A stretch of DNA of 54,454 nucleotides, from positions 1 through 54,454 of IMG/VR virus record IMGVR_UViG_3300025141_000124; one strand, 5' to 3'. Positions 9,228-51,834 of this stretch are shown piece after piece. Numbering within the stretch: the first letter of the stretch is position 1; every line of letters starts with the position of its first letter. Both the position numbers and the translations under genes were made by a program. The stretch is from a virus. A model generated the notes under the pieces. The model saw nothing but the letters and a program-made list of their open reading frames with translations, had not been told where the DNA came from and searched no databases.

Positions 9228-12200
9228 TTAATTTATTCTAAACTTATTCCTTGAAATAGCCTCAAACAATATTTCACCTGGAGAGATCGATTGATTATCA
9301 AGAGCTTTAACAAATGGGACTCTTCCTGTTTTTCCTGATTCGTTAAAGACATTAATATTAACAGAGTCAACTCCGTCTATTGCTGCGGCTGTAGCAATTA
9401 TATCAGAATAATCCACTGTGCCTCCCAAGACAGATGTATTGAGGACGTTAGATACAGCACTTATCACATTTTCAACTATTTTATCAGTATTTGCCAACGA
9501 GTTATTATTTATAAGTAAGGTTCCCTGAACGCTTATCGGTATATTTTCGGCTTCTTTTATAAGAATATCTGCAGTTATAGGCCGTACTCTCTCGGCTTCT
9601 ATAGTAGAGTTTATAATAAGCTTATTAACATTATACGAAATACTTATTCTTTCTCCCTCTTTTGGAGCAAGAAAGTCATAATCAACATTATAGGTTATAC
9701 CATTTTCCGGCTGGTTATCTGCATCTAATTTAATTGATCCTATTAGATTTCCTGTGCTTGATCTAAATCCCGAGGAAACAGATACTCGATCTATTATTCC
9801 GAATCTATTTTTTGTAGATTTGCTAGCTGAGCTTGAGAAGTATAGCTCCTCACTGGCATCAAGATTATATAGAAGTAGCTCTATTCTAACTTTGTCTTCG
9901 GCCGTCAATGATACTGCAGTATTATTGGGAGTAGATGGAATTACAAATGCATAATTATCAAGTGATGAGCTTGAAAGCGCAGTTCCAACTGAATACTCTG
10001 ATGTTTTAAGTTGAACTCCAAGAGTATCTAAAGATGTAGTTTCGTTACCATCGCTATCAAGAAGGGTTATCGCATCTATTTTCGCTATGCCTAAATTTGA
10101 CGAAAGAGTTGTTAAGCCGAGGGCAGATAGTATGTCGTTTTCTAGATCGCAAATTAGTCCGCTTATAGATACTCCTGCCGTTATGTCTAATGTATATCGA
10201 TTTAAGGTTGTGCCTGTTACTTTTATTTTTCCAGGATTTGTAATTCCAGAAACTCCAATTTTTACATGAGTTGGGCCAAATCGGCCTACAGGCACTGGAC
10301 CAGAACTGACAGAATTATCATAAAAAACAGGCTGATTAGAGGCCGAGGATCCATCTCCATTTAATGAGGTTAACCTATTTGAGGAGTCAACGCTTGTTAT
10401 TGGTAAGTTGGACAGACTAACCTTCGAATAAATAGAGCTTGTATCAATTACATATCTTACATAAACTGGCTCTTCTGCAAAATAAACCTCTTCTACTCCA
10501 TCTAGAATACCTTCTGCGTCTAATATTCCATCTGACGGGAGAACTACGACATTGTTATAAGTAGATGCATCGGAATTGCCTATGTCAAATATTTCGCCTT
10601 TATTATAATGAACAGTCACTATGTCTCCGACGCTTCCGACGGAATCTGATGGAAATATTATCGTCTTTGAATAAAATGAGCCATCATCTTCTTCCGTTTT
10701 GTATAGCTCCAAAAGATCAGAGCTTCTTTTGATAGAGATTATATTGTCAATAGATCTGTCTGATTCAGACAAAGTAATTCCGATTGTCGTTCCTCCGTCT
10801 ATTGTGCTAACACTAGCAATTGTAGCGGTAGCTAGCTCCTTGACATAAGCCGAGATGACTCTGCTGATGCCATAATCAAGAGAAATTTGAAAACTCAAAT
10901 CATCATCTGATTTTTCAATAATCGATTCTTCCTCGAAAATTCCACCACTCTGGGTCCAATCAATAACATCAACTACAGATGGGGCCTTAAATTGTGATGG
11001 ATTACCTCCAGCAAAATCAATATGTCTATCGAAAAATTTTCTCCAAGTATAATTTACGCTCAGAATATCGGCAGGAGTTGGAAGCGACTTTCCAGAAATT
11101 TTAATAACGCCAGTTCTATTCAGACCATCAGAATCTAGATTCTGATCAATAACCGAATAGACTTCTCCTGTGGTTTTGTTTTGAACCCGAGCCGCCCTAA
11201 CCATTGGGGTTTGTCTTAGCGTAATGAATTCTCGATTAGCCTTACTTACTTCTGCGTTTTCTGATGCTTCATTTAGGTCTATATATACATTGTTTATGTT
11301 ATCAATATCAGAAAATGCCAACAAATCTAATCCAAATAAAATTCCTTTTGGAATCGACTCTGCTTCAACATCTTTTCTGCTTGAAATAAAATGAATTTTA
11401 TCAAATCCAAATGGGCTTCCACCAGTCTCTGGATTTAAATCTTTTTGTAATTCGAAATTACCTCTCTTAACTCCATCTTCATCAAGAAATGCTTCAGTTA
11501 ATGCTCCAGACGAACTTCCTATAACAAACGCTACAGAGTCTGCTGGCTGTGCTGGCAAAGATCCAGTTTTAAATGCCAGCACTCTTCTTTCTTCTGATGT
11601 TCTCGTCTGATCCTGACCAGACTGGCCCAAAATGAAGTCATTTCTCTCATCGTTAATTCGCCCAACCCCGGATAGGTCTGTGAAAATATATGATTCAGAG
11701 ACTTGCTCGACTTTTCTTCCAAGGATATAAATATCTACCTTACCACCTGTTCCTGAGCTTAGAATTCTGCTAGTACCATCATCAAGTTCTAAGGTTTCTG
11801 TTCCATCTCTTAACATTAGAGAGTTTCCGGGCTCAACAACTAACGCATCTAAGACACCATTAACGCCTAGAATTGAATTTCTATATCCTGCTGAAGTTCC
11901 AATATTAGCGCCACTGAATATAGCTAAAATTCGTGATCTAAACGAATCATCACTCTCATTATTCGAGCCACCAATAGTTGACGTTAAATTTATAACAGAA
12001 ACAGCATTTTGTAGGTTTGTTTTTATTATCTGCAAAGACGCAACATTGCCAGATGTTCCCGGCCTAACGGCTTGAATAGGAACTTCTATTGCATATGTGC
12101 TATTTAATCCGGCAATATTTAAAGCCTTTCTGAGTCTATTCGCATTCGCAGCTAAACGATTTTTATCAGCCGCAGACATTACATAGTTTCCTATCGTCCG

Positions 12201-12551
12201 AAATCCTATTCCGCCTCTTGATGTATTTAATGTTCCATTTGGAATTGGTATATCAGCAACCAAACTATTGGTTCCAAAAATGAGAATGCCACTTGCTGAA
12301 GATCCGGTACTCTTTGAAACTCCGAAGTTAGCCGCCAAACGTTCCAAGTCCCTACCAGATGTTGTTGCCAAAGATTGTTTTTCTGAAACTAAATTCAATG
12401 CCGAATATAATCTTGATATTTCGTCAGCCGGAAGATCTACGAAAAGATCTCTAGATACAGATCCGGGCTTGGTATCAAGGCTTGGCTGTGAAAACCCTAA
12501 TCTCTGAATCATCGTGGATACTATTTCGCTAAATGATCTAAAAGTCGCCAT
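9228..12551 (-). CDS. Baseplate wedge protein, J-like (T4 gp6 family)
   Basis: This 1107-residue protein has the layout of baseplate J proteins. Residues about 30-90 hold the N-terminal helical part (RDLFVDLPADEISRLY, then a domain-entry GTNSL). Residues about 155-245 hold the typical core (VRPGTSGNVAS, then NNESDDSFRSRIL and a glycine-rich GTSAGYRN). The last 120 residues, from RVRPITADILIKEAE through a C-terminal DGVDSVNI, match the usual end of the family. T4 gp6 has 660 residues, so about 400 extra residues sit in the middle, apparently beta-rich. GGGGAAAG precedes the ATG, 8 bases after the gp25-like stop. Known role of the family: dimers form the inner wedge ring that joins hub and sheath. 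Assignment is secure from sequence pattern and position; the insertion's role is unknown. Confidence 0.9.
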   Translation of the reverse strand: MATFRSFSEIVSTMIQRLGFSQPSLDTKPGSVSRDLFVDLPADEISRLYSALNLVSEKQSLATTSGRDLERLAANFGVSKSTGSSASGILIFGTNSLVADIPIPNGTLNTSRGGIGFRTIGNYVMSAADKNRLAANANRLRKALNIAGLNSTYAIEVPIQAVRPGTSGNVASLQIIKTNLQNAVSVINLTSTIGGSNNESDDSFRSRILAIFSGANIGTSAGYRNSILGVNGVLDALVVEPGNSLMLRDGTETLELDDGTSRILSSGTGGKVDIYILGRKVEQVSESYIFTDLSGVGRINDERNDFILGQSGQDQTRTSEERRVLAFKTGSLPAQPADSVAFVIGSSSGALTEAFLDEDGVKRGNFELQKDLNPETGGSPFGFDKIHFISSRKDVEAESIPKGILFGLDLLAFSDIDNINNVYIDLNEASENAEVSKANREFITLRQTPMVRAARVQNKTTGEVYSVIDQNLDSDGLNRTGVIKISGKSLPTPADILSVNYTWRKFFDRHIDFAGGNPSQFKAPSVVDVIDWTQSGGIFEEESIIEKSDDDLSFQISLDYGISRVISAYVKELATATIASVSTIDGGTTIGITLSESDRSIDNIISIKRSSDLLELYKTEEDDGSFYSKTIIFPSDSVGSVGDIVTVHYNKGEIFDIGNSDASTYNNVVVLPSDGILDAEGILDGVEEVYFAEEPVYVRYVIDTSSIYSKVSLSNLPITSVDSSNRLTSLNGDGSSASNQPVFYDNSVSSGPVPVGRFGPTHVKIGVSGITNPGKIKVTGTTLNRYTLDITAGVSISGLICDLENDILSALGLTTLSSNLGIAKIDAITLLDSDGNETTSLDTLGVQLKTSEYSVGTALSSSSLDNYAFVIPSTPNNTAVSLTAEDKVRIELLLYNLDASEELYFSSSASKSTKNRFGIIDRVSVSSGFRSSTGNLIGSIKLDADNQPENGITYNVDYDFLAPKEGERISISYNVNKLIINSTIEAERVRPITADILIKEAENIPISVQGTLLINNNSLANTDKIVENVISAVSNVLNTSVLGGTVDYSDIIATAAAIDGVDSVNINVFNESGKTGRVPFVKALDNQSISPGEILFEAISRNKFRIN

Positions 12552-12559
12552 TCTTTCCC

Positions 12560-12991
12560 CTAAGCTATTCTTACTGTAACAGAGCTTTCTACTCTGTCTA
12601 ATTCTTGAGTTAATACAGAAACAAATATATTATACAATCTTGGATCAACCTTATCTCTTGTAACCTCCAGATTTAAAATATCTATTATAATCTCTCCTGG
12701 GCTAAGCGACTGCCTTCTTGCTTGCGCCCGCTGTAGAGACATTAGATTTCTTATTGCCGATCTAGCAGAAGATGTTATATCTAATGATATAAGCTTGTCA
12801 TCAGCGTGGGATCCAACCTGAAGCTTTCCAACATGACTTCCATATTTTGGATGAAATTTGTTGTCTCCCAGGTCAGTTAAGAGAATTTTTAATATATCCT
12901 GTCTTAACTTTGAGTTCCCAGTAACAGATGAAACAGTCCCATCTGTGTTTATTTTCAAATCTCCATTTTCTAATCTTAAATCAAAAGACAT
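12560..12991 (-). CDS. Baseplate wedge protein, gp25-like (GPW/gp25 family)
   Basis: At 143 residues this is the normal size for the family (T4 gp25 is 132). It starts with the typical beta-rich segment DLRLENGDLKINTDG, then KLRQDILKILLTDLGDNKFH and PKYGSHVGKL, the classic gp25/GPW core. The C-terminal part (SPGEIIIDILNLEV) resembles the beta strands of that fold. In contractile systems this protein contacts gp6/J and nucleates sheath assembly on the baseplate. AAGGAAG lies just before the ATG. The 82-base gap upstream (12992-13073) contains only an AT-rich leader; I see no convincing promoter or terminator there. Confidence 0.9.
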   Translation of the reverse strand: MSFDLRLENGDLKINTDGTVSSVTGNSKLRQDILKILLTDLGDNKFHPKYGSHVGKLQVGSHADDKLISLDITSSARSAIRNLMSLQRAQARRQSLSPGEIIIDILNLEVTRDKVDPRLYNIFVSVLTQELDRVESSVTVRIA

Positions 12992-13073: not shown

Positions 13074-15005
13074 TTAGTCGTCGTACATGAATACGGCAGT
13101 TTCTTGCGTAGAAATAATCAGTCGAACAAGCTCGTACGCCTCATATGCTGCTTCGGATACCTTCTCAACAGCATTCGCCATGCTGAACTCCAAAGAATAA
13201 TCATCAAAAAATCCATCTGAAAACTCTGCCTTCATATAATCAAATTGCTTGTCCGTAAGTAGGGATAGTAATATATCTTCTGGAACAGAAAACAAAGCTA
13301 TCGTAAAAGCGAGAACGTCTATAGACCCGACGCCTTTTGCTACTCCTAAATCTGCACCAATAGCGGCCCTATCTGGATCGGCTTTTTTCGCTATTTCATC
13401 TTTTTTGGTATTTACTTCTGAAATCTTTGATTCAGCCCATCTTCTTGGAATATCTATAGAAGATAGAACTGCGCCCATTAGATGAGCATCTTTAACGGAA
13501 GATGATCTAGCTGTACCCTCCTGAAGGTCAATGGTATCAAATGATGTATTATCTCCTAGCAGAAGAAGAATTGAATCTTCTACTGTTTTTATTAAATTAT
13601 ATTTATCTAATTCTGGATCAGACTTAACCTGTTTTGTCTCTGAAGCAACATTCTCAGGATCATCTTCTTCAGCTTTAGTTGGAATTCTCTTTGTTCTTTC
13701 CTGCACAATATTCATTGAGGCAACTTTTTCTCTAATATCTAATGCTAAACCATATAATGCGGTAAATAGTCTGGCTATAAGCAGTGATTCCAATAATCCA
13801 AGCTGAGACATGACACCTTTGAACGTTATATCCTTTTGAATAGAGCTAACTGAAGTTGGAGGCTGAGATGCGCTATCAGAGTATGTTTCGTTAGTTCCGG
13901 AAATTACATCTAGTCTAATTCTTATTATTGCTTCTAAGAGAGTTGGGCGCATCCTATGCGTATTAATGGTTCTTAAACTATTTGGAAGAAATGGTTCAGC
14001 AACTATTTTTCTTGTTTCATTAATACATTTCGCAATCCGCTCGTCCTGTACTGGCGGAAACAATAAGTAGGAATATTTCCAAAAATTATTAGCTAAATCT
14101 AATCGTCTTACTGATTGATCTGGTACCTTCAATACATATTCCTTAAATAAAGTTGAAGTATTCTGAACATTAATTGATGGCTCTAATAGAAAAAGAGCCT
14201 CAGTGAGCATAGCGAGCAAATTTCTATCCGTAGCAGCATTGGCCGTTTGCCCAGGTCCAAAAAGTCCTGATAAATTAAATAATCTTGTTCTCGACGCATC
14301 TATCTCTTCTGAGTCCTCAGAAATTTCCGAAGAGACATCGCTTACTACTTTCCGGGCCAACTCTTTGGCTTCCTCTGATGTTGAATCGCCTACTCCCTTT
14401 AAGGCGGATAAAGTTTCGAGAATACTTGATAATTCTTCAGTTTTCTCAAATCCTATTTCTTCCAAATCAGCAATTGGGTTACGATTGCCTATTAGATCAA
14501 AAATCTCATCACCATATACTGTCGGCCTACTCTCTCGCCCAAGCTGTCTTGTGTCAAGAACTACCGCAGTATATCGATCTTTATTTAATCCATCATTATG
14601 CCTAACTCCATCAGAGGTCATATAAGTAAGTTTTGCGTCTTCATCAATATCGGCGGAAGATGGCATCCCAAGCATTCTGAAGAACGCATTCTCATATGAC
14701 TCCAAAACAGCCTCGGAATCTACAATCTCCTCAAAGCTTAAATTATTTCCTTCTTGGTCTGGAATTTCTTTTACTAATTCAAATGGAAGAAACGAAGATC
14801 TAATCCTTCTAAGATCAGCGAATAAAGAGCTAAAATTTTCATTAATTTCAGCAAACATCTTTACATATTCTTCGCCACTTATATTACTTAAAAATGAATC
14901 TACTTGATATTTATACTTTAGGGTGGCAAGCGCCTTGCTTAACGCTATTCCAAGAAAAGAATCTTTCTTCAAATTCTTATTAACTTTATTTAAAATATCT
15001 GCCAT
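13074..15005 (-). CDS. Unrecognised 643-residue virion-cluster protein
   Basis: I do not recognise a family. The protein is soluble-looking, rich in helices and charged residues, with no signal peptide or clear membrane segment. Residues about 200-245 form an acidic stretch (SDVSSEISEDSEEIDAS). A run near residues 440-470 (PTKAEEDDPENVASETKQVK) looks disordered. The ATG lies one base after the stop of the 2521-residue gene, so translation is probably coupled; the ribosome site is weak (GAG). Its place between the giant membrane-helix protein and the gp25-like gene suggests a baseplate or baseplate-assembly role, but this rests on position only. Confidence 0.6.
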   Translation of the reverse strand: MADILNKVNKNLKKDSFLGIALSKALATLKYKYQVDSFLSNISGEEYVKMFAEINENFSSLFADLRRIRSSFLPFELVKEIPDQEGNNLSFEEIVDSEAVLESYENAFFRMLGMPSSADIDEDAKLTYMTSDGVRHNDGLNKDRYTAVVLDTRQLGRESRPTVYGDEIFDLIGNRNPIADLEEIGFEKTEELSSILETLSALKGVGDSTSEEAKELARKVVSDVSSEISEDSEEIDASRTRLFNLSGLFGPGQTANAATDRNLLAMLTEALFLLEPSINVQNTSTLFKEYVLKVPDQSVRRLDLANNFWKYSYLLFPPVQDERIAKCINETRKIVAEPFLPNSLRTINTHRMRPTLLEAIIRIRLDVISGTNETYSDSASQPPTSVSSIQKDITFKGVMSQLGLLESLLIARLFTALYGLALDIREKVASMNIVQERTKRIPTKAEEDDPENVASETKQVKSDPELDKYNLIKTVEDSILLLLGDNTSFDTIDLQEGTARSSSVKDAHLMGAVLSSIDIPRRWAESKISEVNTKKDEIAKKADPDRAAIGADLGVAKGVGSIDVLAFTIALFSVPEDILLSLLTDKQFDYMKAEFSDGFFDDYSLEFSMANAVEKVSEAAYEAYELVRLIISTQETAVFMYDD

Positions 15006-15006
15006 T

Positions 15007-18000
15007 TTAATTCTCTAATTTTGTTCCAAATGTTTGTGGAGTTGGCTTAGAAGACTTGGCACTGTTCTCTCTGTCCTTATCTCCAGATGAAGATGAGTCT
15101 ATTCCTTTTGCAAACAGAATTGTCAATATTCGATCCACTTTAGTTAGCGCTCCGGGCGCGAAAACTTCTTCTGCCTCAGCTATTGATATCGCAGAATCAT
15201 CAACACAATCTACTTTTGCTTCCAGTTCATCTGTTTCTGGGATTATTATACCCCTATCTGTAACAGCCTGAATAACTGTTGAGCAAACAGTTGCTCTAAC
15301 CTTAACAATTCCTGCGGCTGGAGCTGTAATCGCAAACGTATATTCTCCTCCATTTTTTTCGAATATACTTGCCTCATTTCCTTCAGATGGAGATGCTAAT
15401 TTTGCCCCTCCTGTATCATCCCTTAGAAAATCTATCTTAATGGAATCTGTTAGATCTAAAGCCGGAGATAATACGTCATCATAGCAGTCTCTTGGGGTTA
15501 TGTTTATAACAGCCTTACTGCCTACTGTTACAATCGCAGAATCTCCAACTCCAGATGCATACTCCATTGCTCCGGTAATTTTCGGGAATCCGTCTAGCTC
15601 TTCATCAAATTCAAGCTCATCAACAATATCAAAATTAATCAGATTTGCCAAACCCTCTTGCTCTGGATCTATAAAATCCGTAAGAGGAGTTTCGTCTTCG
15701 TCATTTAGTAACTTGAAAGATGTATTTAATGGGTTAATCACAAATCCACAGATATTATCAATTTCACCTTCGTAGCAATCTTTAAGTATGTTATATTGGT
15801 CAATAACATCGCGAACTGATATCTGCTCTGGCACATTGCCAAGCTCCAAGAAGCTTCTTACTTTGGGAATTATTCCAACTGGAACTCCATTTAAATCTTC
15901 TATCGTGCTACTAAAGTAATCCAAGAAAGCCTGAGTACACTCAGAGAGAGTTGTTATGCTATCCTCTATTGTCTCTGTGTCTGTGAACCCCGGCAGATCA
16001 AGAAGCAGCTCTGTCGGGCCAGATGCTCCGCATGCTGCGGCAATATCATCGGCTAATTGGCGCATGTCCACAATATATAGAGTCGGAAAGTCAAAGACAT
16101 TAATCGTATTGGCAGCCCTTGTTATGGCGTCAATGTCTTCGGGTGAACCTCCAACATAATTATAGTCGCCCACAGCAGTTCCATCTGCAAAAAATTCAAA
16201 AGGCTGATCAGCACTGTCTGCAATTGCATTATAATTGGCTTGCTGCCAAATTAGTATCTCTCCAGCATTAATTTCATGATCATTCTCAAGAGCCTCAAGA
16301 GAGGCGGCCTGGATTGAAGCAGGATCGGGATTCAGCTCTGCAAATGACAGGTATATTTCTCGGCCCTCTACCGCAAAAGCTTTCTTGGGCGCAGTTGGAA
16401 AGTTCATCATTTTTGCGTGAATAGCGGTTATTGCCGGAACTCCGTTCACATCCTCAACTATAATTCCCCCCTGACCAGTACCGGGTTCTTCGACAAAATA
16501 GATATTAAACTCGTCATCTATCAAGGCGATCATCGGGATTGATCCGAATGTCTTGGTCACTTCAACCGGAGTAAATTCGGCAGATAAAGTATCAGGGTTT
16601 ACCCCAGGCTCTTGAAGTTCAAATGTTACAGTTAGAGGCTTAGGCTGGTAGGTTCTAGCTCCATTTAAATCGGCCCCTCGTTCTAGAAAGAATCCTCCAG
16701 TTGTATCTTTGTCGGACGCCCCATCGATTGGAGAGACAAAGCCTATGTCATCCATATCTCCTGCTATCTTCAGGGAGTTGCCGTCTGGCTTCAAAAAGCT
16801 AGGAGGAGAATCCAATGTTTGCAAATTATCTATAGTCTTTTTGTCGAAAAATGGAGCGAAAAATGGAATAAAGGCATGCGGAGCAGTTTTCCCACTCTCA
16901 TTAAATTCAAACCAAACCATTCTCGGGTCAGGTCCTGTGAAGATTGCGAACTCCTTTGTTGATCTTGAAAACGAAAGTCCAAAAGTTCCTTCAAAGCTCC
17001 CTCCATTAAACCTTAGGCTTTGGTAATTAACGTTATCATGCTCTCCGTTTCCGTCTAAGTCTCCCTCGAAAAAGCCTCCCTCTTCAATTAAAATATTGTC
17101 TCCCGTCAGACTGCTCCTTATGCCGGGCAAAGGCCTTCCGCCAAATCCGGTATTGTCAGATACAATTTCAACACCGGAAGCTTGCTCTGATACTTCCGAT
17201 AAAATGCTTCCAAAATCAAAAATCGCTGGAGGTGTATTTCCTGCCGAACCTACGTCATCAACCGGAAGAGTAGTGTACGTTTGAGCCATAGGGAGAAGCG
17301 CATCCGGAACTATTCTTCCGGCCGGAACAACCTTGCTCATGATTAATCCGGCCAATTGAGATGGATCTATACAGGCCTCTTCATCGGCGTCTGTTTTGAT
17401 CTGACATGGGAATGCGAAGGTTAAACTTAGTAGCTCTAAGAATAGAGCTAAAACGTTAAGAATCGGGTCAAGAACAGTTAGGTCGGCCTCAAGGCTCGCT
17501 AAGTGCTCAGCAATTGTTTCTTCTAAAGCTATAATAGCAGGATAGTTCTTCTGCTCTATTGCGTTCTGTAGTGCAGTCGAGATTTCGTTAATAGCGTTTA
17601 TAATTCCAAGAACCTTTATTATGATACACAGGAGAAGCTCAACAACATGCAAGACCAATGCTAGCGCCATAGCGGGAACGGCCAGCTGAGGAAGCAACAA
17701 AATTAGATCATACAGACAAAGGAAGAGTCTTATTATTGCAAATACCAGCGCAATCGGATTTAACAAAGCGCAAATTACATCTATAATGCAGAAGATAACC
17801 TTTATCGGAACTAACAAAACCTTGAAATTTCGCAGCTGCATAGTCAGCTCTGCAGTCAGGTGGAAGGACATATCACAGAAACTTTGAATCTGCTCCTTTG
17901 GAACATTTGCCTTGTCCAAAGTTACCGACATAAACTTCAGATATCTTTCTTCTAGCTTTTCCTTAAGATCAGAAGGGGAGCCTCTTTTGCTTCTGGCTCC

Positions 18001-21000
18001 GCCAGAAATGCTACTCTCGATCTTATCCTCCAGATCTATTGCTATATCATTTCCAAGCTGCCTTGCGATCTGCATATGCTTTTCGCTAGAATTTGTTAAC
18101 GCTATTGAGATGCAGTTATCAGCGCCATATAGCGACAAACCAAGGTCTGGAGCCCTAACTTTGAATCGTTGATTAATGCCAACTAATTTAAAGCCAAGTA
18201 TTTTTAATCTTCTGCCGCCTAATTCAACCTTTGTATCCCTTGTTGCTCCGCTGGCAATAATGAAGAAAGCCTTATTGGATTTCAGTCTAAAATCAGAAAA
18301 CTTCAGATCCCCATTGGCAGAATAGCGAGCGCCTCCATCATCTTCTATTTCTATAATTTCTGGAACATTAAATTTTATTGCTGATGTTTGTCCGAATCTA
18401 AATGTTAAGGTTAATTTGAACTCAGTATTATCATCAGTCTGTTGTATAAATGATGTTGGAATTAAGGAATCTTTGTCAATATAAATATTATCAATATTTG
18501 TTCTGGTGAAATCGCTAGCCCTCGGCTCCATAGCTGAAGCACTCTGCACCAAACCATCAGCAGCCTGAGAAGCCAACTGTGTCAGACTCGACAGTTTGTC
18601 GGTCAGAGATTGTATGAGGGCAAGTCCGTCCTCCAGCAGTCCTAAGGCATCTGCGGCAGCGCCCGTGGCGGCTCCTGCGGCACTTGCAGCCGCACTAGAT
18701 GGATCTGCACTTTCAGCCGCATCGGAAGCCTCTGTGGCGCTAGCAGAAGCTGCGTCGGCAGTTGTGAGCGCCTGATTGTAGTCAGCCTGTTTTTCTTCTA
18801 TTTCTTGAATCTTTCCGTCAATATCGCTAACTTCGCCTTCTGTTGCTCCCTCTTTCTCTGATTCGAGAGCAGCCTTCTGTCTATCCAGATTCGCTAACTG
18901 CTCCTCTCCCTGCTCTTTAACTCTATCGATTCCGGCCTGAACTTCCGAAAGTGGAATCTGAGCCTCAGAATCACCTAATATATTTATCTTTACTATTTCT
19001 CCATGACTATTCTCTTTACTGGGATTAGCGTCAGAGTCGGATAAAAACATCCCATAAGTCTTTCCATCTATTTCACTTCCAAATATTAAATCAACACTTG
19101 GGTAAATTTTTATTGGGCTTGGGAACCTTAGAAAAGAAGTCGTAGGAGTAAATGCCCATTTCCCAGGATCTGTTTGGATCGGAATTGATGATAGCCCAAG
19201 ATTAGCTGGGAAAATATTTGGATATGGAGATATTTGATCATAAAAAATATACGGTATAAGTTTATTTTCTTCAGATGCCAAAATCATGGCATCCTCACTA
19301 ATAGATGGATCATTTTTAACAATAGAATCGTCTATTACCTCACCACTTCCTGAAAAGCTTACAGTTAGACGATTATATACTGTAGAGTCATAAGTAACGT
19401 TAAATCTTTTATCTTTTTTGGTTACAACAACATCAAGATATCCGGTATCCGTTATACCAGTTATATTGTGAAAGTTTGCCACAAGCTTTTCGGATTCGCC
19501 TTTAACGAATCCAAAACGATATTTAGTAATCTTCTTAGCACTTGATCCGGAACCTATGGTAAAGCTATATGATCTAGATTTTCTTGGCTCGTCGGGGGGA
19601 CCATTAAATATAACTGCCAACCGTTCTATTTTGTTATTAGTTTTTAGCTCTGCTTGATACGCTATTGGACCGCCTTGGGTTGAATCTAGCCAGTCTATAT
19701 ATTTTCCGCAGCTATCAACTCCAGCCTTACTTATATTAGAAAAAGATTGATCGGTTCCGATCCCAGCACCAGACACTCGTATTGCTAGTCCGGTAATATG
19801 TGGAGGATTAATGAATGCAGGCTTATCTTCCTCTCCCTTTTTTGAGCCAATAGGAATTATGGCGTAATTAGGCTTCTGCAAGATAGGCGTTGCATCAGTA
19901 ATTTTGGAATTACTAAGAATTATATAAGCTCTATAATTTCCACCGCTATAAGTAAGTTGATTAAATCTGCTTAAATTTAATTTTGATCCTGGCCCAGGAA
20001 ATTTTAACTTAACCCTTCTGTTGGTACCATTATTTATTCTTGAAAAATATTCAGAGCCTAACTCATACTCAAGTCCTGTAGGGATTATAAGACTAGTATG
20101 ATCAGGAGTGTCAAGAAGCGTATAAACAAGCGGAGAAGAAGACTTGGTAACCGTAGTTGGCCATCCAATATCTTCTTTTAAAATATCATTATTTTCCTGA
20201 TTATTCAGAACACCTATATAGGCATATAATTCAAGTCCTTTTTTAAAAACTGGCTTATCATATCTCAATATAATTTCTGCATTTGTTTTATCGTCCATCA
20301 ATAATGGAATAGAATCTATTTCTCTGCCAAATCTTGGGGCCTTCAAAAGATTTGGATCTTTGAAGGTAATTCTTGGGTCAGGAGCCGATGGAACATCTCC
20401 TATGACAGTTCCTTCTGACTCAATATTTATTAAAATAAAATCGCTTGTTATCCCCGTATCTAATACAATTTGTATAAAAAATTTACCAGTTCTTGTTCCA
20501 AATAGATTTTTAATTAAACTATCAGAATCGCTTGAGCTTAGGCTGAGCTGCTGGCTCTGGTATGAAATAGTTATTCCATCTGCATCAAATAAAATTCCAT
20601 TACCGGGTTCGGTTTCTGATATTGCTTCATATAAGTATATAGAGCCAGAGCTAATAGGCTCTGTCAGCTCTATTGTTAGATTTTCTATATCAGAATTCTT
20701 ATGAAGGACTGTTCCATCTTCCAGAAATCCGTCTGGAGTAAGGGAGCTAATAATAAAAGACTGCGGATTAATCTTTATGTTTTCCCCGGAAACTCGAATT
20801 ATTTGCCCATATTTATCTACGGCGTAAAGAGCAAATGAAGATACTATTCCCGGATTATACAGACTAACGCCTGCATTATTTTCTCCAAATGGTATCTTCA
20901 GGGTAATTCCCTCCTCTCCGAGGGCCGGCGAGCCTAGAGCTATCCAATTTGCCGGAATTTGGCCTATATCTGTTAAAATATTTGGACAAACAAATGCAGC

Positions 21001-22572
21001 AAATGATCTTGCGGAACAAATCTTCTGATTAAACCATCGCTGATCATTCAGTAAATAAGTTTCTTTTGAAAAATCTCGTGAGCCAAGAACCATTTCTGGT
21101 CTATTCATTTCTCCTAACAAATCTGTTGAGCTTGTTGCTCCGATTAGTTCCGCAGAAACAGAAAGTGGAATACCAACGTCTTTATGGTCGTATAAGCTAC
21201 CTAATATTACATCTCCCGCATATATCCTTGTAGAAAAAGAATCTTTCTTATAATCATCAAGGCTTTTCATTAATCTTTTTAGTTTTGTTTCTTGGTCTTT
21301 GGGTTTGGCACCAGGATTAGCAATAACCTCAGGATCAACAATGGCCCTCAAAGAATTCTTGAAGTAAGGCTTTGTAAGAACTGGGGCCGTAAACATCTCC
21401 AGAGCGTCATCTGCTTCGACAAATCCGACCGGCAGATTAACTAATTGTTGCGGAGCAATTATTGGTGATAAGAAATATTTATATGAAGAATCGTGTCCTT
21501 CTTCAGAGATAGTTAAAAATATATCACTTTCATCTGATGGATATGTTAGATCTGCGTCAATTACTTCGATATCTGGAGGAAAAGCATGGTCAAAAACTAT
21601 TGCCTTATAATCCTTGCTCTGCTTATTTATAAGCTCAAAGCAAAAGAATAAATTTTCATCATCTGATGTGCCTTCTAGATTAATAACTCCTGAGCTATTT
21701 CTTCCTGATAAATCTGGAGTCTTTATGTATAAAGATCCATTTACTTCGGTATAGTATCCTATTACTCCTTGAGATTTGCTGCTTTCTATAAAATCTTCTT
21801 TTATATGAAAAATTGGAAAAAGCTCCAACAAGATTTGAGATATTCTTTCGTCAGTTATGTTATCTATATCAATATCTGATAAGAATCCAGTTAGTTCACC
21901 AAATGTTACTCCGGAAATTCCAACATAATTTTTTAATCCAAAAATAGGATTGCTAAGCTCCTGAGTTAATGCCTCCAAAATAGACTTTATTTTTTCAATT
22001 GGAATGAATTTAAATCCACCAATTTTAGATACAGAACTTAATCTTATTCTTTTTTTGTTCTTACTTTCTACCTCGCTGTTAACCGAATCAACGCTTGATA
22101 GTGAGCTTCTAAGGCTGCTCATATACAAACTTGGTAAGCCACTAGAGTGAAGTCCAGTGGTTATATTCGGCATATTCTGGAGGGCTCTATTTATTTTTAC
22201 TCTTGCGTTTACAAGCTCAGAAATTTTCTGAGAATCACTATCAGATATTTGTTCAATTTTATTTTTAGCAAATGTAGCAAGCTCTTTTATTGGAAGATTA
22301 TAACGACCAAGCTTATCGGCACTAAGAGGCCTGATATCCGTGCCCTTAAAAGCTATCTTGACTATAGAGCCGCCAATAAGCGGAACGACATCAAAGTCGC
22401 CACTGCCGGCACTTGAAGCCTCCGGAAATAGAACCTCATAGCCAGCGCCTTCTAGGCCGGCACGGCTAGTTGATTCGTCTTCCTCTATGCAGTTTACCTT
22501 GACTTTAGAGAAATCTTCGTCCGTATTTATGGGTCCGATTAGATCTAATAAAATCTTTGAAGAATTAGCCAT
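15007..22572 (-). CDS. Giant tail/baseplate structural protein with internal membrane-helix cluster (2521 aa)
   Basis: A single uninterrupted frame of 2521 codons, preceded by TGGAG 8 bases before the ATG. Residues 1 to about 1200 are beta-rich and unrecognised. Residues about 1204-1350 are a coiled coil that passes into an Ala/Ser-rich run (ADAASASATEASDAAESADP). Residues about 1577-1660 form a nearly continuous hydrophobic block with three or four predicted membrane helices (VLLVPIKVIFCIIDVICALL, AMALALVLHVVELLLCIIIK). Another hydrophobic segment lies near 1705-1722. The C-terminal 200 residues include a filamin/Ig-like module (NGGEYTFAITAPAAGIVKVR). There is no signal peptide. It sits between spike and wedge genes, so it is probably a virion or tail-tip protein. 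Buried membrane helices may insert into a host membrane during ejection; that is inference. Confidence 0.7.
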   Translation of the reverse strand: MANSSKILLDLIGPINTDEDFSKVKVNCIEEDESTSRAGLEGAGYEVLFPEASSAGSGDFDVVPLIGGSIVKIAFKGTDIRPLSADKLGRYNLPIKELATFAKNKIEQISDSDSQKISELVNARVKINRALQNMPNITTGLHSSGLPSLYMSSLRSSLSSVDSVNSEVESKNKKRIRLSSVSKIGGFKFIPIEKIKSILEALTQELSNPIFGLKNYVGISGVTFGELTGFLSDIDIDNITDERISQILLELFPIFHIKEDFIESSKSQGVIGYYTEVNGSLYIKTPDLSGRNSSGVINLEGTSDDENLFFCFELINKQSKDYKAIVFDHAFPPDIEVIDADLTYPSDESDIFLTISEEGHDSSYKYFLSPIIAPQQLVNLPVGFVEADDALEMFTAPVLTKPYFKNSLRAIVDPEVIANPGAKPKDQETKLKRLMKSLDDYKKDSFSTRIYAGDVILGSLYDHKDVGIPLSVSAELIGATSSTDLLGEMNRPEMVLGSRDFSKETYLLNDQRWFNQKICSARSFAAFVCPNILTDIGQIPANWIALGSPALGEEGITLKIPFGENNAGVSLYNPGIVSSFALYAVDKYGQIIRVSGENIKINPQSFIISSLTPDGFLEDGTVLHKNSDIENLTIELTEPISSGSIYLYEAISETEPGNGILFDADGITISYQSQQLSLSSSDSDSLIKNLFGTRTGKFFIQIVLDTGITSDFILINIESEGTVIGDVPSAPDPRITFKDPNLLKAPRFGREIDSIPLLMDDKTNAEIILRYDKPVFKKGLELYAYIGVLNNQENNDILKEDIGWPTTVTKSSSPLVYTLLDTPDHTSLIIPTGLEYELGSEYFSRINNGTNRRVKLKFPGPGSKLNLSRFNQLTYSGGNYRAYIILSNSKITDATPILQKPNYAIIPIGSKKGEEDKPAFINPPHITGLAIRVSGAGIGTDQSFSNISKAGVDSCGKYIDWLDSTQGGPIAYQAELKTNNKIERLAVIFNGPPDEPRKSRSYSFTIGSGSSAKKITKYRFGFVKGESEKLVANFHNITGITDTGYLDVVVTKKDKRFNVTYDSTVYNRLTVSFSGSGEVIDDSIVKNDPSISEDAMILASEENKLIPYIFYDQISPYPNIFPANLGLSSIPIQTDPGKWAFTPTTSFLRFPSPIKIYPSVDLIFGSEIDGKTYGMFLSDSDANPSKENSHGEIVKINILGDSEAQIPLSEVQAGIDRVKEQGEEQLANLDRQKAALESEKEGATEGEVSDIDGKIQEIEEKQADYNQALTTADAASASATEASDAAESADPSSAAASAAGAATGAAADALGLLEDGLALIQSLTDKLSSLTQLASQAADGLVQSASAMEPRASDFTRTNIDNIYIDKDSLIPTSFIQQTDDNTEFKLTLTFRFGQTSAIKFNVPEIIEIEDDGGARYSANGDLKFSDFRLKSNKAFFIIASGATRDTKVELGGRRLKILGFKLVGINQRFKVRAPDLGLSLYGADNCISIALTNSSEKHMQIARQLGNDIAIDLEDKIESSISGGARSKRGSPSDLKEKLEERYLKFMSVTLDKANVPKEQIQSFCDMSFHLTAELTMQLRNFKVLLVPIKVIFCIIDVICALLNPIALVFAIIRLFLCLYDLILLLPQLAVPAMALALVLHVVELLLCIIIKVLGIINAINEISTALQNAIEQKNYPAIIALEETIAEHLASLEADLTVLDPILNVLALFLELLSLTFAFPCQIKTDADEEACIDPSQLAGLIMSKVVPAGRIVPDALLPMAQTYTTLPVDDVGSAGNTPPAIFDFGSILSEVSEQASGVEIVSDNTGFGGRPLPGIRSSLTGDNILIEEGGFFEGDLDGNGEHDNVNYQSLRFNGGSFEGTFGLSFSRSTKEFAIFTGPDPRMVWFEFNESGKTAPHAFIPFFAPFFDKKTIDNLQTLDSPPSFLKPDGNSLKIAGDMDDIGFVSPIDGASDKDTTGGFFLERGADLNGARTYQPKPLTVTFELQEPGVNPDTLSAEFTPVEVTKTFGSIPMIALIDDEFNIYFVEEPGTGQGGIIVEDVNGVPAITAIHAKMMNFPTAPKKAFAVEGREIYLSFAELNPDPASIQAASLEALENDHEINAGEILIWQQANYNAIADSADQPFEFFADGTAVGDYNYVGGSPEDIDAITRAANTINVFDFPTLYIVDMRQLADDIAAACGASGPTELLLDLPGFTDTETIEDSITTLSECTQAFLDYFSSTIEDLNGVPVGIIPKVRSFLELGNVPEQISVRDVIDQYNILKDCYEGEIDNICGFVINPLNTSFKLLNDEDETPLTDFIDPEQEGLANLINFDIVDELEFDEELDGFPKITGAMEYASGVGDSAIVTVGSKAVINITPRDCYDDVLSPALDLTDSIKIDFLRDDTGGAKLASPSEGNEASIFEKNGGEYTFAITAPAAGIVKVRATVCSTVIQAVTDRGIIIPETDELEAKVDCVDDSAISIAEAEEVFAPGALTKVDRILTILFAKGIDSSSSGDKDRENSAKSSKPTPQTFGTKLEN

Positions 22573-22596: not shown

Positions 22597-22629
22597 ATTA
22601 CCTTGAATAATAATATTATTCAAGGTAAT
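22597..22629 (-). promoter_or_regulatory. Perfect 33-nt palindrome spanning the spike gene stop
   Basis: The 16-base arms attaccttgaataata and tattattcaaggtaat are exact reverse complements separated by one base. On the coding strand the hairpin begins about 11 bases before the TAA stop of the spike gene and ends about 25 bases before the next ATG. No strong T-run follows on the minus strand, so it is not a classic terminator. It could protect or process the mRNA, or partly terminate. Confidence 0.55.
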
Positions 22630-25009
22630 CAAATAAGCAGTGAGCCTGAGCCAAAACTCCCTCTATTGTTGCAGTAGGGGTGTCTATAGATATTGGATCC
22701 TTATAGGTCTTTCTGGGAGACTGATTTCCTTCTCTTACCTCAACACTCTGTCCGGCTAAAATCAGCTTAGAAGTACTTTCTAGGCAGATATCTCCGTCAT
22801 TTCTTATAATCATAGGGCTGCCAGTATTCATGCCAGCAATTACAAGCCCATTTTTACTTATGGAGATTATATAATCTGATGCGTTAGTCTCTTCGGCTTC
22901 TTCTCCGAGAAATCCCTTGTGATTAACATTTACTCTTAATTCAAATCTTCCTTCATTAAATTTATCACCATTTGTTCCTCCAACATTTATGAGGGCATCT
23001 CCATCTGTTTGTAGAATTAAACTTCTATTATTCTTATCTTTTCCAAACCAAGCAATCATGCTTCCTGCGGTATCTAATATAATACTTTTCATATCATTAT
23101 GATCCGCTCCAACAGATGCCTCAATTGCTCCTTCAAAATTTAGATTTGCGCTCTTTCCGCCAGAAGCTTTCCTGCTCTCTCCAGACTCGTCAACATTGGT
23201 TGTTGATACGACATCTCCATCATCATTCTTACTTACCGCGAATGAGTTAGTATACTGATAATTTGCTCTATTATCATTTTCATCAAAGTCAAGAGTAAGA
23301 TCTTTTCCAGCCACCAAAACTCCACCGCCCGGATCAATAGCTGGACTGCCCGGAGAGACTCCTACTGCTGCCATATAAGTTACTTGAGCTGAATCTTCCC
23401 CATTTAAATCAAGTGCCTCAGAGCTTCTTTCAAAAGATTTATTTATAGAGTTTCCCGGAATAAACCCTACGCATGCTGTGTTTTGAAATGGAATCAAAAC
23501 GCTATTAATGGTGTTTGCTATCAGCATCTCAGCAGCAGCATAAATATTATGATGTTTTGTTGGGTTTATTCGAATATTTTCAGGCTGCTCAGCGGTTTGT
23601 TCTAATCCCTGGAAGTAACTATCATCATTTGAGTGTCTAATTCCTGTAAATCTAGTTACGCCTTCTCCCTCAGAAAGAACGAGATCTACGGCAGATTCAG
23701 ACGGAATAAGAATTCCGCTCTCAGCATCCCTTAGTGTTATTGGAATTTTTTCTTTTTTTCTAAAGTTATATGTTGTTTCTATCTTCTCAGAAGAATCAGA
23801 ATAAAACTCAGCAAAGTTTGGATAAAAAATATTTCCAGTATCTGATGTCGCAGGGATGTTCGCCTTTAAAGCCCCCTCTTTATCAATGGAAAAAATGAAA
23901 TTACTTTCATTATTAGATACCTCATTGGACAGGCTGTTTGTTGATAGCTGGAAATGATATCCCATTCCTCTGCGAGACTGGAGCCGGCCCTTCTCATATT
24001 CCAATCGAATGTCTGATTCATCGGCCCGACCACCAGCATTACCAATAACAACTCGGCCATAATTTGGATCTAATAGCTCTCCTCTTGAGTTGATAACGTT
24101 TCCTGCAATAATCTCTATAAGCTGGTGAGGCGCTAAATGTAAAGCATTCTCTTGAGAAATAGCTCTTGTTTCTTTGTTATTTGAAAATTTAGATACATTT
24201 ATTGAGTCAATTTCTCCAGATTCAACATCCCAGCCTCTAAAGTAATCAGATTCAGAAATCTCATTAATAACAATTCTGTACTCAGATAGAGCAGGATTTC
24301 TTTTATCTCCAAAAATACTTGATCTTGCAGCTCTAAACCCCGGATATATTCCCCTTACCATTCCGTAGTCTAAATTATATGTTTTTAAATCATTGCCAAT
24401 ATCTGCAATTCCGCTTTTTTGAGTGAATCCAGATGGAATTCTAATTGCGTCTCTTGACGTAATTCTGTGGGCCGAACTAACCAGCTGCATAGAGTCGGAT
24501 ACTAATGCCGTATTTGTTTTTACGGAATTTGCTTTAGATATAAATAATCCACTAGAATGTTCGTTCCCAAGAAAAATTCCAGCAATAGCTCCGTCTCCGC
24601 CAAATAAATACAGTTCCCCGCCACCAGCGCCTACGGCCTTAAGCTCTCCCGGCACCAATCCCTTTGTTGGATAGTTGGATCTTCCTGCTAAAGTATTTCT
24701 CGAAGGCGCTCTTGATTCGGAGTTATCTCTATCTGCTTTAGGAATAATTCTTAATGCCTGGAATATCCCCTTCCCGCCTGGAAAAACTCTAGAATAAATA
24801 ACAGTATCACCAATGTCTGGATGCTGATAAATTCCTGCGCTGCCTGTTCCTCCATAGTAAACTGGAGGAATTATTATTGGATCCTTAATATCCGTTAAAT
24901 CAGTTACTACATGCAAATCTCCAGTATTTTTATCAACCTTTATTATTCTGCCTTCTTTTACTTTATATTTTTGGAGCTGATTCTTTACGCTATCCACGCC
25001 TACTTTCAT
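22616..25009 (-). CDS. Baseplate central spike, OB-fold (gp5/gpV-like)
   Basis: Residues about 15-85 look like the OB-fold of spike proteins: GRIIKVDKNTGDLHVVTD, then YQHPDIGDTVIYSR, the usual 'hPxxGDxV' signature, closing with FQALRI. The remainder (797 residues in all) is repetitive beta structure. The last about 90 residues (ISISKNGLVIAG, SPMIIRNDGDICLES, KLILAGQSVEV) look like a trimeric beta-helix. No lysozyme domain like that of T4 gp5 was recognised. The start is clear: a perfect AAGGAGGT ribosome site, and the ATG directly follows the TAA of the hub gene. In this family a trimer caps the tube and pierces the outer membrane. The role is well supported by motif and neighbours. Confidence 0.8.
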   Translation of the reverse strand: MKVGVDSVKNQLQKYKVKEGRIIKVDKNTGDLHVVTDLTDIKDPIIIPPVYYGGTGSAGIYQHPDIGDTVIYSRVFPGGKGIFQALRIIPKADRDNSESRAPSRNTLAGRSNYPTKGLVPGELKAVGAGGGELYLFGGDGAIAGIFLGNEHSSGLFISKANSVKTNTALVSDSMQLVSSAHRITSRDAIRIPSGFTQKSGIADIGNDLKTYNLDYGMVRGIYPGFRAARSSIFGDKRNPALSEYRIVINEISESDYFRGWDVESGEIDSINVSKFSNNKETRAISQENALHLAPHQLIEIIAGNVINSRGELLDPNYGRVVIGNAGGRADESDIRLEYEKGRLQSRRGMGYHFQLSTNSLSNEVSNNESNFIFSIDKEGALKANIPATSDTGNIFYPNFAEFYSDSSEKIETTYNFRKKEKIPITLRDAESGILIPSESAVDLVLSEGEGVTRFTGIRHSNDDSYFQGLEQTAEQPENIRINPTKHHNIYAAAEMLIANTINSVLIPFQNTACVGFIPGNSINKSFERSSEALDLNGEDSAQVTYMAAVGVSPGSPAIDPGGGVLVAGKDLTLDFDENDNRANYQYTNSFAVSKNDDGDVVSTTNVDESGESRKASGGKSANLNFEGAIEASVGADHNDMKSIILDTAGSMIAWFGKDKNNRSLILQTDGDALINVGGTNGDKFNEGRFELRVNVNHKGFLGEEAEETNASDYIISISKNGLVIAGMNTGSPMIIRNDGDICLESTSKLILAGQSVEVREGNQSPRKTYKDPISIDTPTATIEGVLAQAHCLFDYLE

Positions 25010-31098: not shown

Positions 31099-32958
31099 TT
31101 AATGATTTTCTGTTACTTGCTGCCCGAGGCTAGCGGAAATAGCAAGAAGATTTTTGAGTTCTTCAGTCATGCGGACGTCCACTACTACGTTTTTGTTGTT
31201 TTTGTTTGAATCAGTAAAAGCCCTGAGCGCTGCGGCTAAGTCGTCAGTTGTCGGCCCAGAACTTCCGCCGCCTGGGTCGCCGGATGGAGGAGTGGCTAAA
31301 TTTTGTTGTGTATTCCTATCGACTTTGCCAGCATCAGTTTCTGCTCCGAGAACACTTGCAGCTCCCGTCCCATCTGGGCCTGCACCTATTACTCCCAAAA
31401 GCCTATCAACTCCAGCTGCATAGGTGCCCACACCATCTCTCGCTGCTTTTGATCCGACGTCAACCATCTCTTCAAGTTTATCCCTAAGAAGCTCTGCGCC
31501 GCCTCTTTGTTTTAAAAGTGTTTCGCTCGCTATTACTGCCAACCAGTTTGATTGTGCGGCAAGATGCCTGTTTGACAGCTCAAGCTTATCTAGAGTCTGA
31601 TCTCTGCCATCTTTTTCTTTAGCTATCTGCTCTTCGAGTAATGCTTTTGCATCAAGATCTCCAGATCTTGTTGCATCATCTAGGTCAGCTAATAACTCAA
31701 GCGTTCTATTTGCTGACGCCTCATCCTTTATTCCAAACTGATTCACTAATAGTTTCTGCTGCATAAAAAAATCTTTCTCTAGCCCAGGACTTTCTGCGGC
31801 CTGTGAAACCGTCACAATATCGCCGCCAGTAAATGATGCCAAAGTATCTCTCATGCCCTTTGCTAATTCGGCTCCAAGATCTGCTTGACTTCCTGTTTTT
31901 TCTGCTTCCAAAACTGCGGCTTGCAATCCAATCGATGAGCTTAAAACTCCTCCGCCTCCGCCAATATCCAGGCCCCCTCTTTGAAAGATTAAATAAGCAT
32001 TTGCATAATCAGTTGTAAGGCTTGCTAATGAACTTGATAACCCTGCGGTTAAATCTGTTGCGTTTTCTATGCCCAGCCCCATATCATTCATCACTCTTGC
32101 AAACCCTTGCATTAGAGGAACGCCAAAGTCAGCAGATATGCCAAGTTTTGTAAATCCGGAAACAGCACTATTTAGGGTTTCAGAAACGCTTCTTATGCTG
32201 AGGCCAGTCTCCATTGATACTCCACCAAACATTGCCATCATCTCTAATGCGTCTTGAGCGCTTTTGCCCTGTTTGTTTAGAGCTGTGCTAAGAAGCCCCA
32301 TGCCTTCGTTGGCCGTTAGCCCACTTGCGGCTGCCAAAGACCATGCAGCAGCCAAAAGACTTGTGTCTCCAAGCCCTGTTCCAACAGTTTTGTTTAGCTG
32401 CTCTAGGGTTACATTTGTTCCTGCAGATGCATCTGCAAAAGCTTTTAGCTTGTCTCTCGTAAGGTGTAATGTTTCACCGAATTGACTATATGTTTCTTTC
32501 CTTAGGGCTTCTCCGAACTTAAAGGCTTGCTCAATCGTACCGCCAAATTTCTTATTTAGATCAAAAATACCGCTAGCAAAGGATCTCACATCCCTAGACG
32601 GAGCATCAAAAAAATCAAATGCAGCCTTAAGTCCTGCATCGCCAATACTAATAAAATCTGAAAAAGCGTCTCCGACTACCCCAATTCCTTTTCCCAGACC
32701 CTCGAAGCCTTCTCCAACCAGTGGACCGGTAGACATTAAGGTAGTTATAAACCCTAAAGAGTTTTTTCCGGCATCTACAAAGTTTTCTGCACTTTTCGCC
32801 AGATCCTCGAAGGCGCTTGTCATGTCGCCAACAGGCTTTGCGCTATCCGAGCCAAGACGACTCAGGCGATCAACAGCCTCTCCCATACTTGTGATCGCCT
32901 TAGCGGCTTTCAACGCGCTGTCGGTAGTCTTTTTAAACTTGCTATCTTCTGTCGTCAT
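31099..32958 (-). CDS. Tail tape measure protein
   Basis: This 619-residue protein lies directly after the frameshifted chaperone gene, the normal place for the tape measure in most tailed phages. It is helix-rich, with the alanine/glycine/leucine-rich hydrophobic middle typical of the family (GLTANEGMGLLSTALNKQGK, SAVSGFTKLGISADFGVPLM, residues about 210-360). A charged helical part follows (about 415-465), then a Gly/Pro/Ser-rich linker (SGDPGGGSSG, about 560). Tape measures fix tail length at roughly 1.5 angstrom per residue, so about 90 nm would be expected here, similar to T4 gp29 (590 residues). The ribosome site is weak (AATAGG). Identification rests on context and composition. Confidence 0.78.
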   Translation of the reverse strand: MTTEDSKFKKTTDSALKAAKAITSMGEAVDRLSRLGSDSAKPVGDMTSAFEDLAKSAENFVDAGKNSLGFITTLMSTGPLVGEGFEGLGKGIGVVGDAFSDFISIGDAGLKAAFDFFDAPSRDVRSFASGIFDLNKKFGGTIEQAFKFGEALRKETYSQFGETLHLTRDKLKAFADASAGTNVTLEQLNKTVGTGLGDTSLLAAAWSLAAASGLTANEGMGLLSTALNKQGKSAQDALEMMAMFGGVSMETGLSIRSVSETLNSAVSGFTKLGISADFGVPLMQGFARVMNDMGLGIENATDLTAGLSSSLASLTTDYANAYLIFQRGGLDIGGGGGVLSSSIGLQAAVLEAEKTGSQADLGAELAKGMRDTLASFTGGDIVTVSQAAESPGLEKDFFMQQKLLVNQFGIKDEASANRTLELLADLDDATRSGDLDAKALLEEQIAKEKDGRDQTLDKLELSNRHLAAQSNWLAVIASETLLKQRGGAELLRDKLEEMVDVGSKAARDGVGTYAAGVDRLLGVIGAGPDGTGAASVLGAETDAGKVDRNTQQNLATPPSGDPGGGSSGPTTDDLAAALRAFTDSNKNNKNVVVDVRMTEELKNLLAISASLGQQVTENH

Positions 32959-48403: not shown

Positions 48404-48877
48404 TTATGGGGTCGTAATGATGGCAACATCGGTTGCCGCATCTGCAAGTAGAAAAGATCCAATAGTTAGCGCAACTCCTAGCGATAAAAACCCTATATTC
48501 TCAATAGTTTGTAGCCTATCTCTTTTGCGATACTTATCGAGAAGGCCCTGATCTAAAAGATGTAAATCTTTATAGTCGCTTATTTGAGTTTTATAAAACT
48601 CCTCGCTTAGCTTATATAGATCAATCTGCTGAGTCCTAACTACTTCTAATTCTTTATACCTTTCTAACTCAAGTACCTTTAGGTCTAATTCCTCAGATTG
48701 CTTCTCTAACTCTATAATTCTAGCCTTTAAGGCCTCAGCCTCTTCTATTGTAAAGACGTAAGAGTCATTCTCCAATACAGTTCCGGCCGGCATTCTATCT
48801 CCAGCATAACTATTTCCAACAAAGGCGAATGGGAAGGCTAAAAAAATGCAAAGAAAAATAACTAAACCTCTTTTCAT
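48404..48877 (-). CDS. Exported coiled-coil protein with C-terminal membrane segment (possible spanin-like)
   Basis: Residues 1-25 are a clear signal peptide (MKRGLVIFLCIFLAFPFAFV, cleavage likely after NSYA). Residues about 42-84 form a coiled coil (FTIEEAEALKARIIELEKQS). A hydrophobic helix spans about 128-146 (GFLSLGVALTIGSFLLADA). There is no lipobox cysteine, so it is not a standard outer-membrane lipoprotein spanin. Its ATG overlaps the stop of the 63-residue gene (ATGA). With the two membrane genes just upstream it may act on the host envelope, for lysis or disruption, but a virion role cannot be excluded. The host would need a Sec system and probably a periplasm. Confidence 0.6.
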   Translation of the reverse strand: MKRGLVIFLCIFLAFPFAFVGNSYAGDRMPAGTVLENDSYVFTIEEAEALKARIIELEKQSEELDLKVLELERYKELEVVRTQQIDLYKLSEEFYKTQISDYKDLHLLDQGLLDKYRKRDRLQTIENIGFLSLGVALTIGSFLLADAATDVAIITTP

Positions 48878-49065
48878 AATTTTATCTCTATCCTTCCCAT
48901 TGGCTCAAGAGGTGCAACTTTTTCTGGGTCAATTAACCCCTCTAGCTCTCTTATGTCAATTCTCAGATGATCCTTCGGACGAATTCCTTCTGCTAAAGAT
49001 ATAATCTTTTCTTTGATCAGGCCATCCTCAATAGAACTTATTAATGAATTTAATTTTGTTAACAT
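48874..49065 (-). CDS. Small soluble protein (63 aa) in the membrane cassette
   Basis: No family is recognised. It is acidic and helix-rich (SLISSIEDGLIKEKIISLAE), with a proline-containing C-terminal half. The ATG shares one base with the upstream stop (TAATG) and has a GGGGG-type ribosome site. Its own stop overlaps the next start (ATGA). This tight coupling on both sides argues that it is a real gene working with its neighbours. Confidence 0.55.
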   Translation of the reverse strand: MLTKLNSLISSIEDGLIKEKIISLAEGIRPKDHLRIDIRELEGLIDPEKVAPLEPMGRIEIKL

Positions 49066-51783: not shown

Positions 51784-51834
51784 ATAGACCTCTTAAGTAT
51801 TCTTCTCTATTAGTAGAGCAATTTGGAGGTCTAT
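51784..51834 (-). promoter_or_regulatory. Hairpin sequestering the ribosome site of the neck gene
   Basis: On the minus strand ATAGACCTC (51834-51826) pairs perfectly with GAGGTCTAT (51792-51784). The 3' arm contains the GAGG ribosome site of the 662-residue gene and abuts its ATG. The 5' arm covers the TAG stop of the HExxH gene. An inner 5-bp stem, CTCTA / TAGAG (51818-51814, 51809-51805), lies in the loop. Translation of the upstream gene would open the stem, giving coupled expression. Confidence 0.6.

Follow-up and report, generated by a model that had tools for sequence, protein, structure and literature searches.

A conserved four-helix module lies in the middle of a 2521-residue phage tail protein. 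It belongs to no described family that we could find, and the protein carrying it is a core tail-tip protein of a clade of large phages. We propose that the module is a membrane-active element of this baseplate or tail-tip protein and is deployed on contraction, a reading to which we assign a probability of a little under one half (about 0.47) and which we slightly favour over a buried oligomeric core. How contractile-tailed phages pass their DNA across the inner membrane is unsettled, with the tape measure protein as the usual suspect and mixed evidence for it. What is new here is that the module is the best-conserved part of its protein, that it recurs in about 50 phage proteins and that its gene order is nearly invariant.

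The window, that is, the whole stretch of DNA analysed, is a 54,454-base IMG/VR virus record (IMGVR_UViG_3300025141_000124, positions 1 to 54,454), and it is probably a fragment since one gene runs off its end. Its minus strand holds a contractile-tail cassette, which begins with fibres, a sheath gene (matching phrog_2839), a tube-like gene, a chaperone-like gene, a 619-aa probable tape measure (31099..32958; assigned from a weak Pfam PhageMin_Tail match at E 0.0027 and from position) and genes of 333 and 1687 aa. There follow a 797-aa spike-like gene (22616..25009), the 2521-aa gene with the module (15007..22572), a 643-aa gene of unknown function (13074..15005), a gp25-like baseplate gene (12560..12991; phrog_2669, E 2.7e-13), a gp47/J-like baseplate wedge gene (9228..12551; phrog_6, E 1.6e-42; Pfam Baseplate_J, E 1.9e-22) and a giant protein that leaves the contig. 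The labels hub, tube, chaperone and spike were assigned in the window from position and sequence pattern; the 797-aa product, which found no match in Pfam and PHROG searches, is presumably the spike.

The preliminary description had drawn attention to a hydrophobic run at residues 1577–1725, and the run is indeed found there, at 17844–17398 within the 2521-aa ORF. It had also been called one of the most hydrophobic stretches of the window, and its best 149-residue mean (1.41) ranks first among the 21 minus-strand ORFs tested, the next being 0.45. Kyte-Doolittle windows of 19 residues exceed 1.6 in this protein only within 1582–1725, with peaks of 2.70, 2.74 and 1.96. When the protein's own residues were shuffled 2000 times, the best mean over 149 residues was 0.54 on average and in no case above 1.07; the cluster is far beyond chance. 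Elsewhere in the window, hydropathy picks out single hydrophobic segments, in three small proteins near 48.4–49.7 kb and in the 643-aa neighbour, and no second cluster among the other proteins. The N-terminus, MANSSKILLDLIGPINTDEDF, shows no evident signal peptide by eye, in keeping with the earlier account. The coiled coil and Ala/Ser-rich segment said to precede the cluster exist as a charged stretch at about residues 1210–1350 (18523..18945, minus strand), but this stretch is outside the module, since it is poorly covered in the distant giant forms L015 and L017 (16–23% of positions). For the coiled coil, a hit to DUF4407 at E 0.016 fell below the cut-off and was rejected as chance similarity of coiled coils.

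As delimited by relatives and alignments, the module spans residues 1545–1734 (17371..17940, minus strand). Four or five helices had been suggested, and AlphaFold predicts four, not five, all encoded on the minus strand: helix A at residues 1565–1603 (17764..17880; hydrophobic half 1583–1604), helix B at 1606–1625 (17698..17757), with the near-invariant R1615 and D1622, helix C at 1628–1673 (17554..17691; hydrophobic half 1628–1652) and helix D at 1677–1718 (17419..17544; hydrophobic half 1697–1721). The strictly hydrophobic part amounts to about 92 residues, in the segments 1583–1604, 1606–1625, 1628–1652 and 1697–1721, with amphipathic extensions between them. A signature, CIIDVICALLNP, occupies residues 1595–1606 (17755..17790, minus strand), and CIIDV is present in 50 of the 51 proteins. 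Cys1723 and Cys1734 are invariant in alignment A5. Directly after helix D, where the giant forms have two invariant cysteines, four small forms of the protein (L090, L092, L093 and L095) have a cysteine cluster, PCGG..GSC.GC...QC, which from its pattern is a possible metal site or set of disulfides.

The same four helices appear in AlphaFold models of window residues 1500–2521 (45 sequences, mean pLDDT 75, pTM 0.57) and of L092, a small form (mean pLDDT 70 from 35 overlapping sequences), with lengths of 39, 20, 46 and 42 residues in the former and 38, 22, 46 and 41 in the latter; the two runs draw on one alignment pool and are not independent. Local confidence in the window model is about 54–76 for helices A and B and 72–88 for C and D. 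The monomer model of the module is a compact antiparallel bundle. From the predicted helix lengths and order, A2, B, C1 and D2, the hydrophobic halves, would be level with each other and make a slab about 20–25 residues thick, flanked by the A1 extension on one side and the C2–D1 hairpin on the other. Compared with the STAT coiled-coil domain, the bundle gives VIA-align Z of 8.4–9.1 (rmsd 3.2–3.8, 145–188 residues aligned), where about 13 is advised for helical bundles, and this resemblance of the predicted fold is within the range of common helical arrangements. A BFVD fold search returned nothing below E 0.001, and the fold searches, which used long models that hid the module, gave a clear match only for the C-terminal Ig-like (invasin/filamin-type) domain within residues 2278–2490 (15103..15741, minus strand). 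In the window protein this domain matches FdeC (VIA-align Z 9.7, rmsd 2.0 over 98 residues), and in the small form it matches invasin (Z 14.3, rmsd 1.5 over 99 residues). That a family does not appear in these hit lists does not count against it.

Judged from alignments, conservation within the 2521-aa protein is highest in the module, whose synonymous sites are saturated. Identity to L015 and L017, the distant giants, reaches up to 61% at residues 1576–1650, with most of the rest at 15–30% (about 20%). In L005, a 67%-identical relative, the same residues keep 93% identity even though 68% of the comparable four-fold sites differ, so selection on the protein accounts for the identity. All 47 aligned proteins have D1598; position 1615 is R or K in 46 and position 1622 is D or E, likewise in 46. 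A different explanation applies to residues 1726–2175 (16048–17397), which share 90–98% DNA identity with L005 in a gene otherwise about 60–70% identical. Constraint was rejected as the cause here, since only 7–21% of four-fold sites differ, which points to recent DNA exchange; by these sequence comparisons, the tract is best read as a segment that recently recombined between two lineages of phage and begins just after the helical module, and the conservation argument leaves it out.

The relatives were collected by scanning viral contigs (up to 435 kb) with three successive profile searches, the last of which gave 56 loci. The module was found in about 50 phage proteins, and complete module proteins range from about 670 to 2767 aa. 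In the giant forms (2.0–2.8 kaa) the module sits at about 60% of the length; in the small forms (about 670–740 aa; L089, L090 and L092–L098) it is near the N-terminus, the giants having an extra 1.2–1.6 kaa or so ahead of it. Homology of the small forms extends into the C-terminal half (E 3e-28 to 3e-16), so what all forms share is the module together with a C-terminal region that closes with the Ig-like domain. At two loci, L063 (8555–12988) and L081 (9581–12748), the giant protein is split into at least two ORFs, the last of which holds the module; in L063 the split may be a frameshift, since the protein is undivided in its close relatives L062 and L064.

Gene order around the module is nearly invariant: tape measure, hub-like, a gene of about 1600 aa, spike-like, module gene, a gene of about 600 aa, gp25 and gp47. 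The preceding gene is of the spike-like size class (667–828 aa) in 44 of the 47 loci that have an upstream gene, and the second downstream gene has the size of gp25 (142–166 aa) in 38 of the 41 with enough flank, the exceptions being L091 (an extra gene in between), L086 and L097. All 13 records searched have the module at one place per genome record. This synteny, with a spike-like gene before and gp25 and gp47 after, supports a baseplate or tail-tip gene. Described families yielded little. Pfam and PHROGs gave nothing convincing, the best PHROG leads (phrog_23638, E 0.0014; phrog_20782, E 0.0031) being short or weak, and a sequence search of solved structures gave nothing. In tblastn searches of 50,697 GenBank phage records, the whole protein, the module, a distant relative and a small form found no relative, nor was there one among the 28 pattern matches in 84,980 prokaryote genomes. 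Bacillus phage G is the best isolate match by its gp47-like protein (31.5% identity over 37% of gp47), is among the matches by sheath and is alike in general gene order. The ORFs of its tail-tip region contain neither the module nor a comparable hydrophobic cluster, and profiles compared against two of its genes gave no match. The short signature CIIDV[IL]CA can serve as a marker for a large-phage group that has no close isolate in the collections searched.

The synteny upholds the view of the 2521-aa product as a tail protein, but not as a tape measure, because in nine phages a separate tape-measure-like gene of 600–740 aa occupies the place between the tail chaperones and the hub. The wide length range of the module proteins argues against a tape measure as well. 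Homology to tape-measure PHROGs was also rejected: the weak matches (E 0.004–1) are equalled by reversed sequences and are compositional. The tape-measure-like proteins of the nine clade phages (603–742 aa) have best 19-residue means of 0.95–1.71, only one exceeding 1.6, and that of the window, with a best mean of 1.27, has no membrane segment; none of the nine has clear membrane segments. This makes it a testable and attractive idea that the membrane job has been displaced from the tape measure to the module protein. The literature generally assigns the membrane helices of contractile and long tails to the tape measure (diffocin, PMC10996793; T5, PMC10038345). The argument is only suggestive, however, since tape measures without membrane segments are not unusual: according to the diffocin paper, those of T4 and T5 have little or no predicted membrane region (PMC10996793).

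Several observations favour a membrane-active module. First, it is the most conserved part of its protein, and positions polar in at least half of the sequences make up 22% of the slab, compared with 43% of the helix extensions and 52% of control helices of the same proteins. Second, variable positions in A2, B and C1 exchange mainly among hydrophobic residues, and in the small forms L090, L095, L097 and L098 insertion energies are about −3 to −6 kcal/mol, with helix C segments in small forms at about −6 kcal/mol (approximate scale). Third, the low best means of the nine tape measure proteins leave the membrane job without a clear carrier there. Fourth, at almost every locus the spike-like gene is immediately followed by this gene, which has a single place per record. 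Finally, membrane segments in tail proteins have precedents, in diffocin and T5 pb2. The same reading is weakened by the giant forms, whose insertion scores are marginal: by our approximate home-made scoring, two segments fall below zero in the window protein and none under +1 in the distant giant L018. It is further weakened by the near-invariant D1598, R1615 and D1622 inside the segments, by slab helix D2, whose variable positions carry polar residues as in a water-facing helix, by the likeness of the predicted bundle to the soluble STAT domain, by equivocal TP901-1 data (PMC5099701) and by the compositional nature of the tape-measure PHROG similarity. Of the earlier suggestion of membrane helices, the hydrophobicity stands and comes with a strong constraint across about 50 phage proteins, but near-invariant charges, marginal scores in the giants, helix lengths of 20–46 residues and a compact bundle speak against it.

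Most of these opposing points would be accommodated if the module were a structural core that stays buried and at no stage meets a membrane, a serious competitor that we nonetheless hold to be likelier wrong than right. Three or six copies would pack their slabs together, or against the downstream protein of 550–700 aa, and so hold spike, hub and wedges, with the charges paired in salt bridges inside and the variable polar stripes turned to water. The invariance of the three charged positions, the marginal scores, the compact bundle with the same helix layout in a small form, and the fact that three of the four helices are longer than a bilayer all fit such a core, and strong conservation suits an interface with multiple partners. 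The 643-aa neighbour could be one of them, as its hydrophobic segment near residue 564, G.GSIDVLAFTIALF, is kept in nearly all relatives examined; on this sequence pattern it is a possible partner of the module. A core of this kind sits less easily with the low polarity of the slab relative to the control helices, with the helix C energies in small forms and with tape measures that retain no clear membrane segment. The monomer model does predict the helices to pack as a bundle, as they would in a soluble protein, but the slab is too hydrophobic to stand alone in water. Polar positions recur about every seven residues (e.g. 1584, 1591, 1598 and 1605) and form thin stripes, which would suit a lumen-facing line and salt bridges inside an oligomer alike.

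If the module is membrane-active, the following sequence can be envisaged. In the virion, the 2521-aa protein would be a core baseplate or tail-tip component, as in the other members of this clade of large contractile-tailed phages, with the four-helix module folded and presumably shielded next to the spike. Sheath contraction would drive the spike into the envelope, and the module would be exposed or released. Its four hydrophobic half-helices, about 20–25 residues each and stacked at one end of the bundle, could then insert in the inner membrane and either anchor the tip or line a passage for DNA, the thin polar stripes and near-invariant charges facing inward. A bolder proposal, which we consider unlikely as it stands, is that the tip complex, not an ejected tape measure, makes the inner-membrane passage, the function having moved into a dedicated module of a widespread, undescribed clade. 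Since the conserved module sits outside the tape measure gene, and the clade's tape measures are without clear membrane segments, the inner-membrane question becomes directly testable here.

Comparison with known systems gives partial parallels to a membrane-active module. The tape measures of diffocin (CD1366), TP901-1 (TMP) and T5 (pb2) are likewise tail proteins with a predicted membrane-helix block, which has been proposed as a conduit at the membrane (PMC10996793, PMC10038345, PMC5099701). Here, in contrast, the block is in another gene, after a spike-like one, and the tape measure has no clear membrane segments; sequence matches to tape measure families are no better than with reversed sequences. 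In TP901-1, one of the two hydrophobic tape-measure regions is dispensable, and membrane insertion is doubted by the authors; these hydrophobic regions have been connected with chaperone binding and tail assembly (PMC5099701). Cis13 of the Anabaena tCIS and CisA of Streptomyces also tie a membrane segment to a contractile baseplate (PMC8894136, PMC12237407), but by their descriptions they differ from the module in being single-segment and in acting on the producing cell's own membrane.

The TP901-1 findings, together with a cyanobacterial contractile system whose particle is held on the thylakoid membrane by a transmembrane segment of its fibre (PMC8894136), lend some colour to a role in building the baseplate, whereby the module binds the host membrane or a chaperone during assembly and is not deployed in DNA entry. 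We consider this improbable: a single copy per record beside the spike-like gene indicates a core tail part, with which an assembly role is still compatible. Type VI prePAAR effectors, which have transmembrane domains at the N-terminus and whose helices are kept soluble before delivery (PMC7773334), resemble the module in that hydrophobic helices sit on a spike-associated protein of a contractile machine; here they are in a giant multidomain protein whose gene follows a spike-like one. It is nevertheless most improbable that the module is cargo or an effector part delivered on the spike, as an AARxxDxxxH-like motif before a transmembrane domain occurs in 0 of 51 proteins, a Pfam search of the window protein and six relatives gave neither a PAAR domain nor a toxin family, and the same core gene is found throughout with a C-terminal half common to all rather than a variable end.

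Other features of the window were observed in passing. An open ORF of 3073 aa runs into the contig edge (1–70) within GGEGP repeats, so the contig probably broke at a repeat. The adjacent fibre-like proteins at 39640–43194 and 43204–48333 share a closely similar N-terminal region (MAKSNYP.KLDTSVEIP...), and from this likeness they are likely a duplication with different ends. Three consecutive small proteins at 48404–49680, each with a signal-like start or a hydrophobic segment, are possibly the products of lysis or membrane genes. Metallopeptidase-like motifs, HEFTH and HEVTH, occur in the neighbouring genes at 51831–52343 and 52651–53325, on opposite strands, and the protein at 53312–54346 consists of tandem repeats with motifs such as LHKIPEYAE.AMLAAKNLAE.
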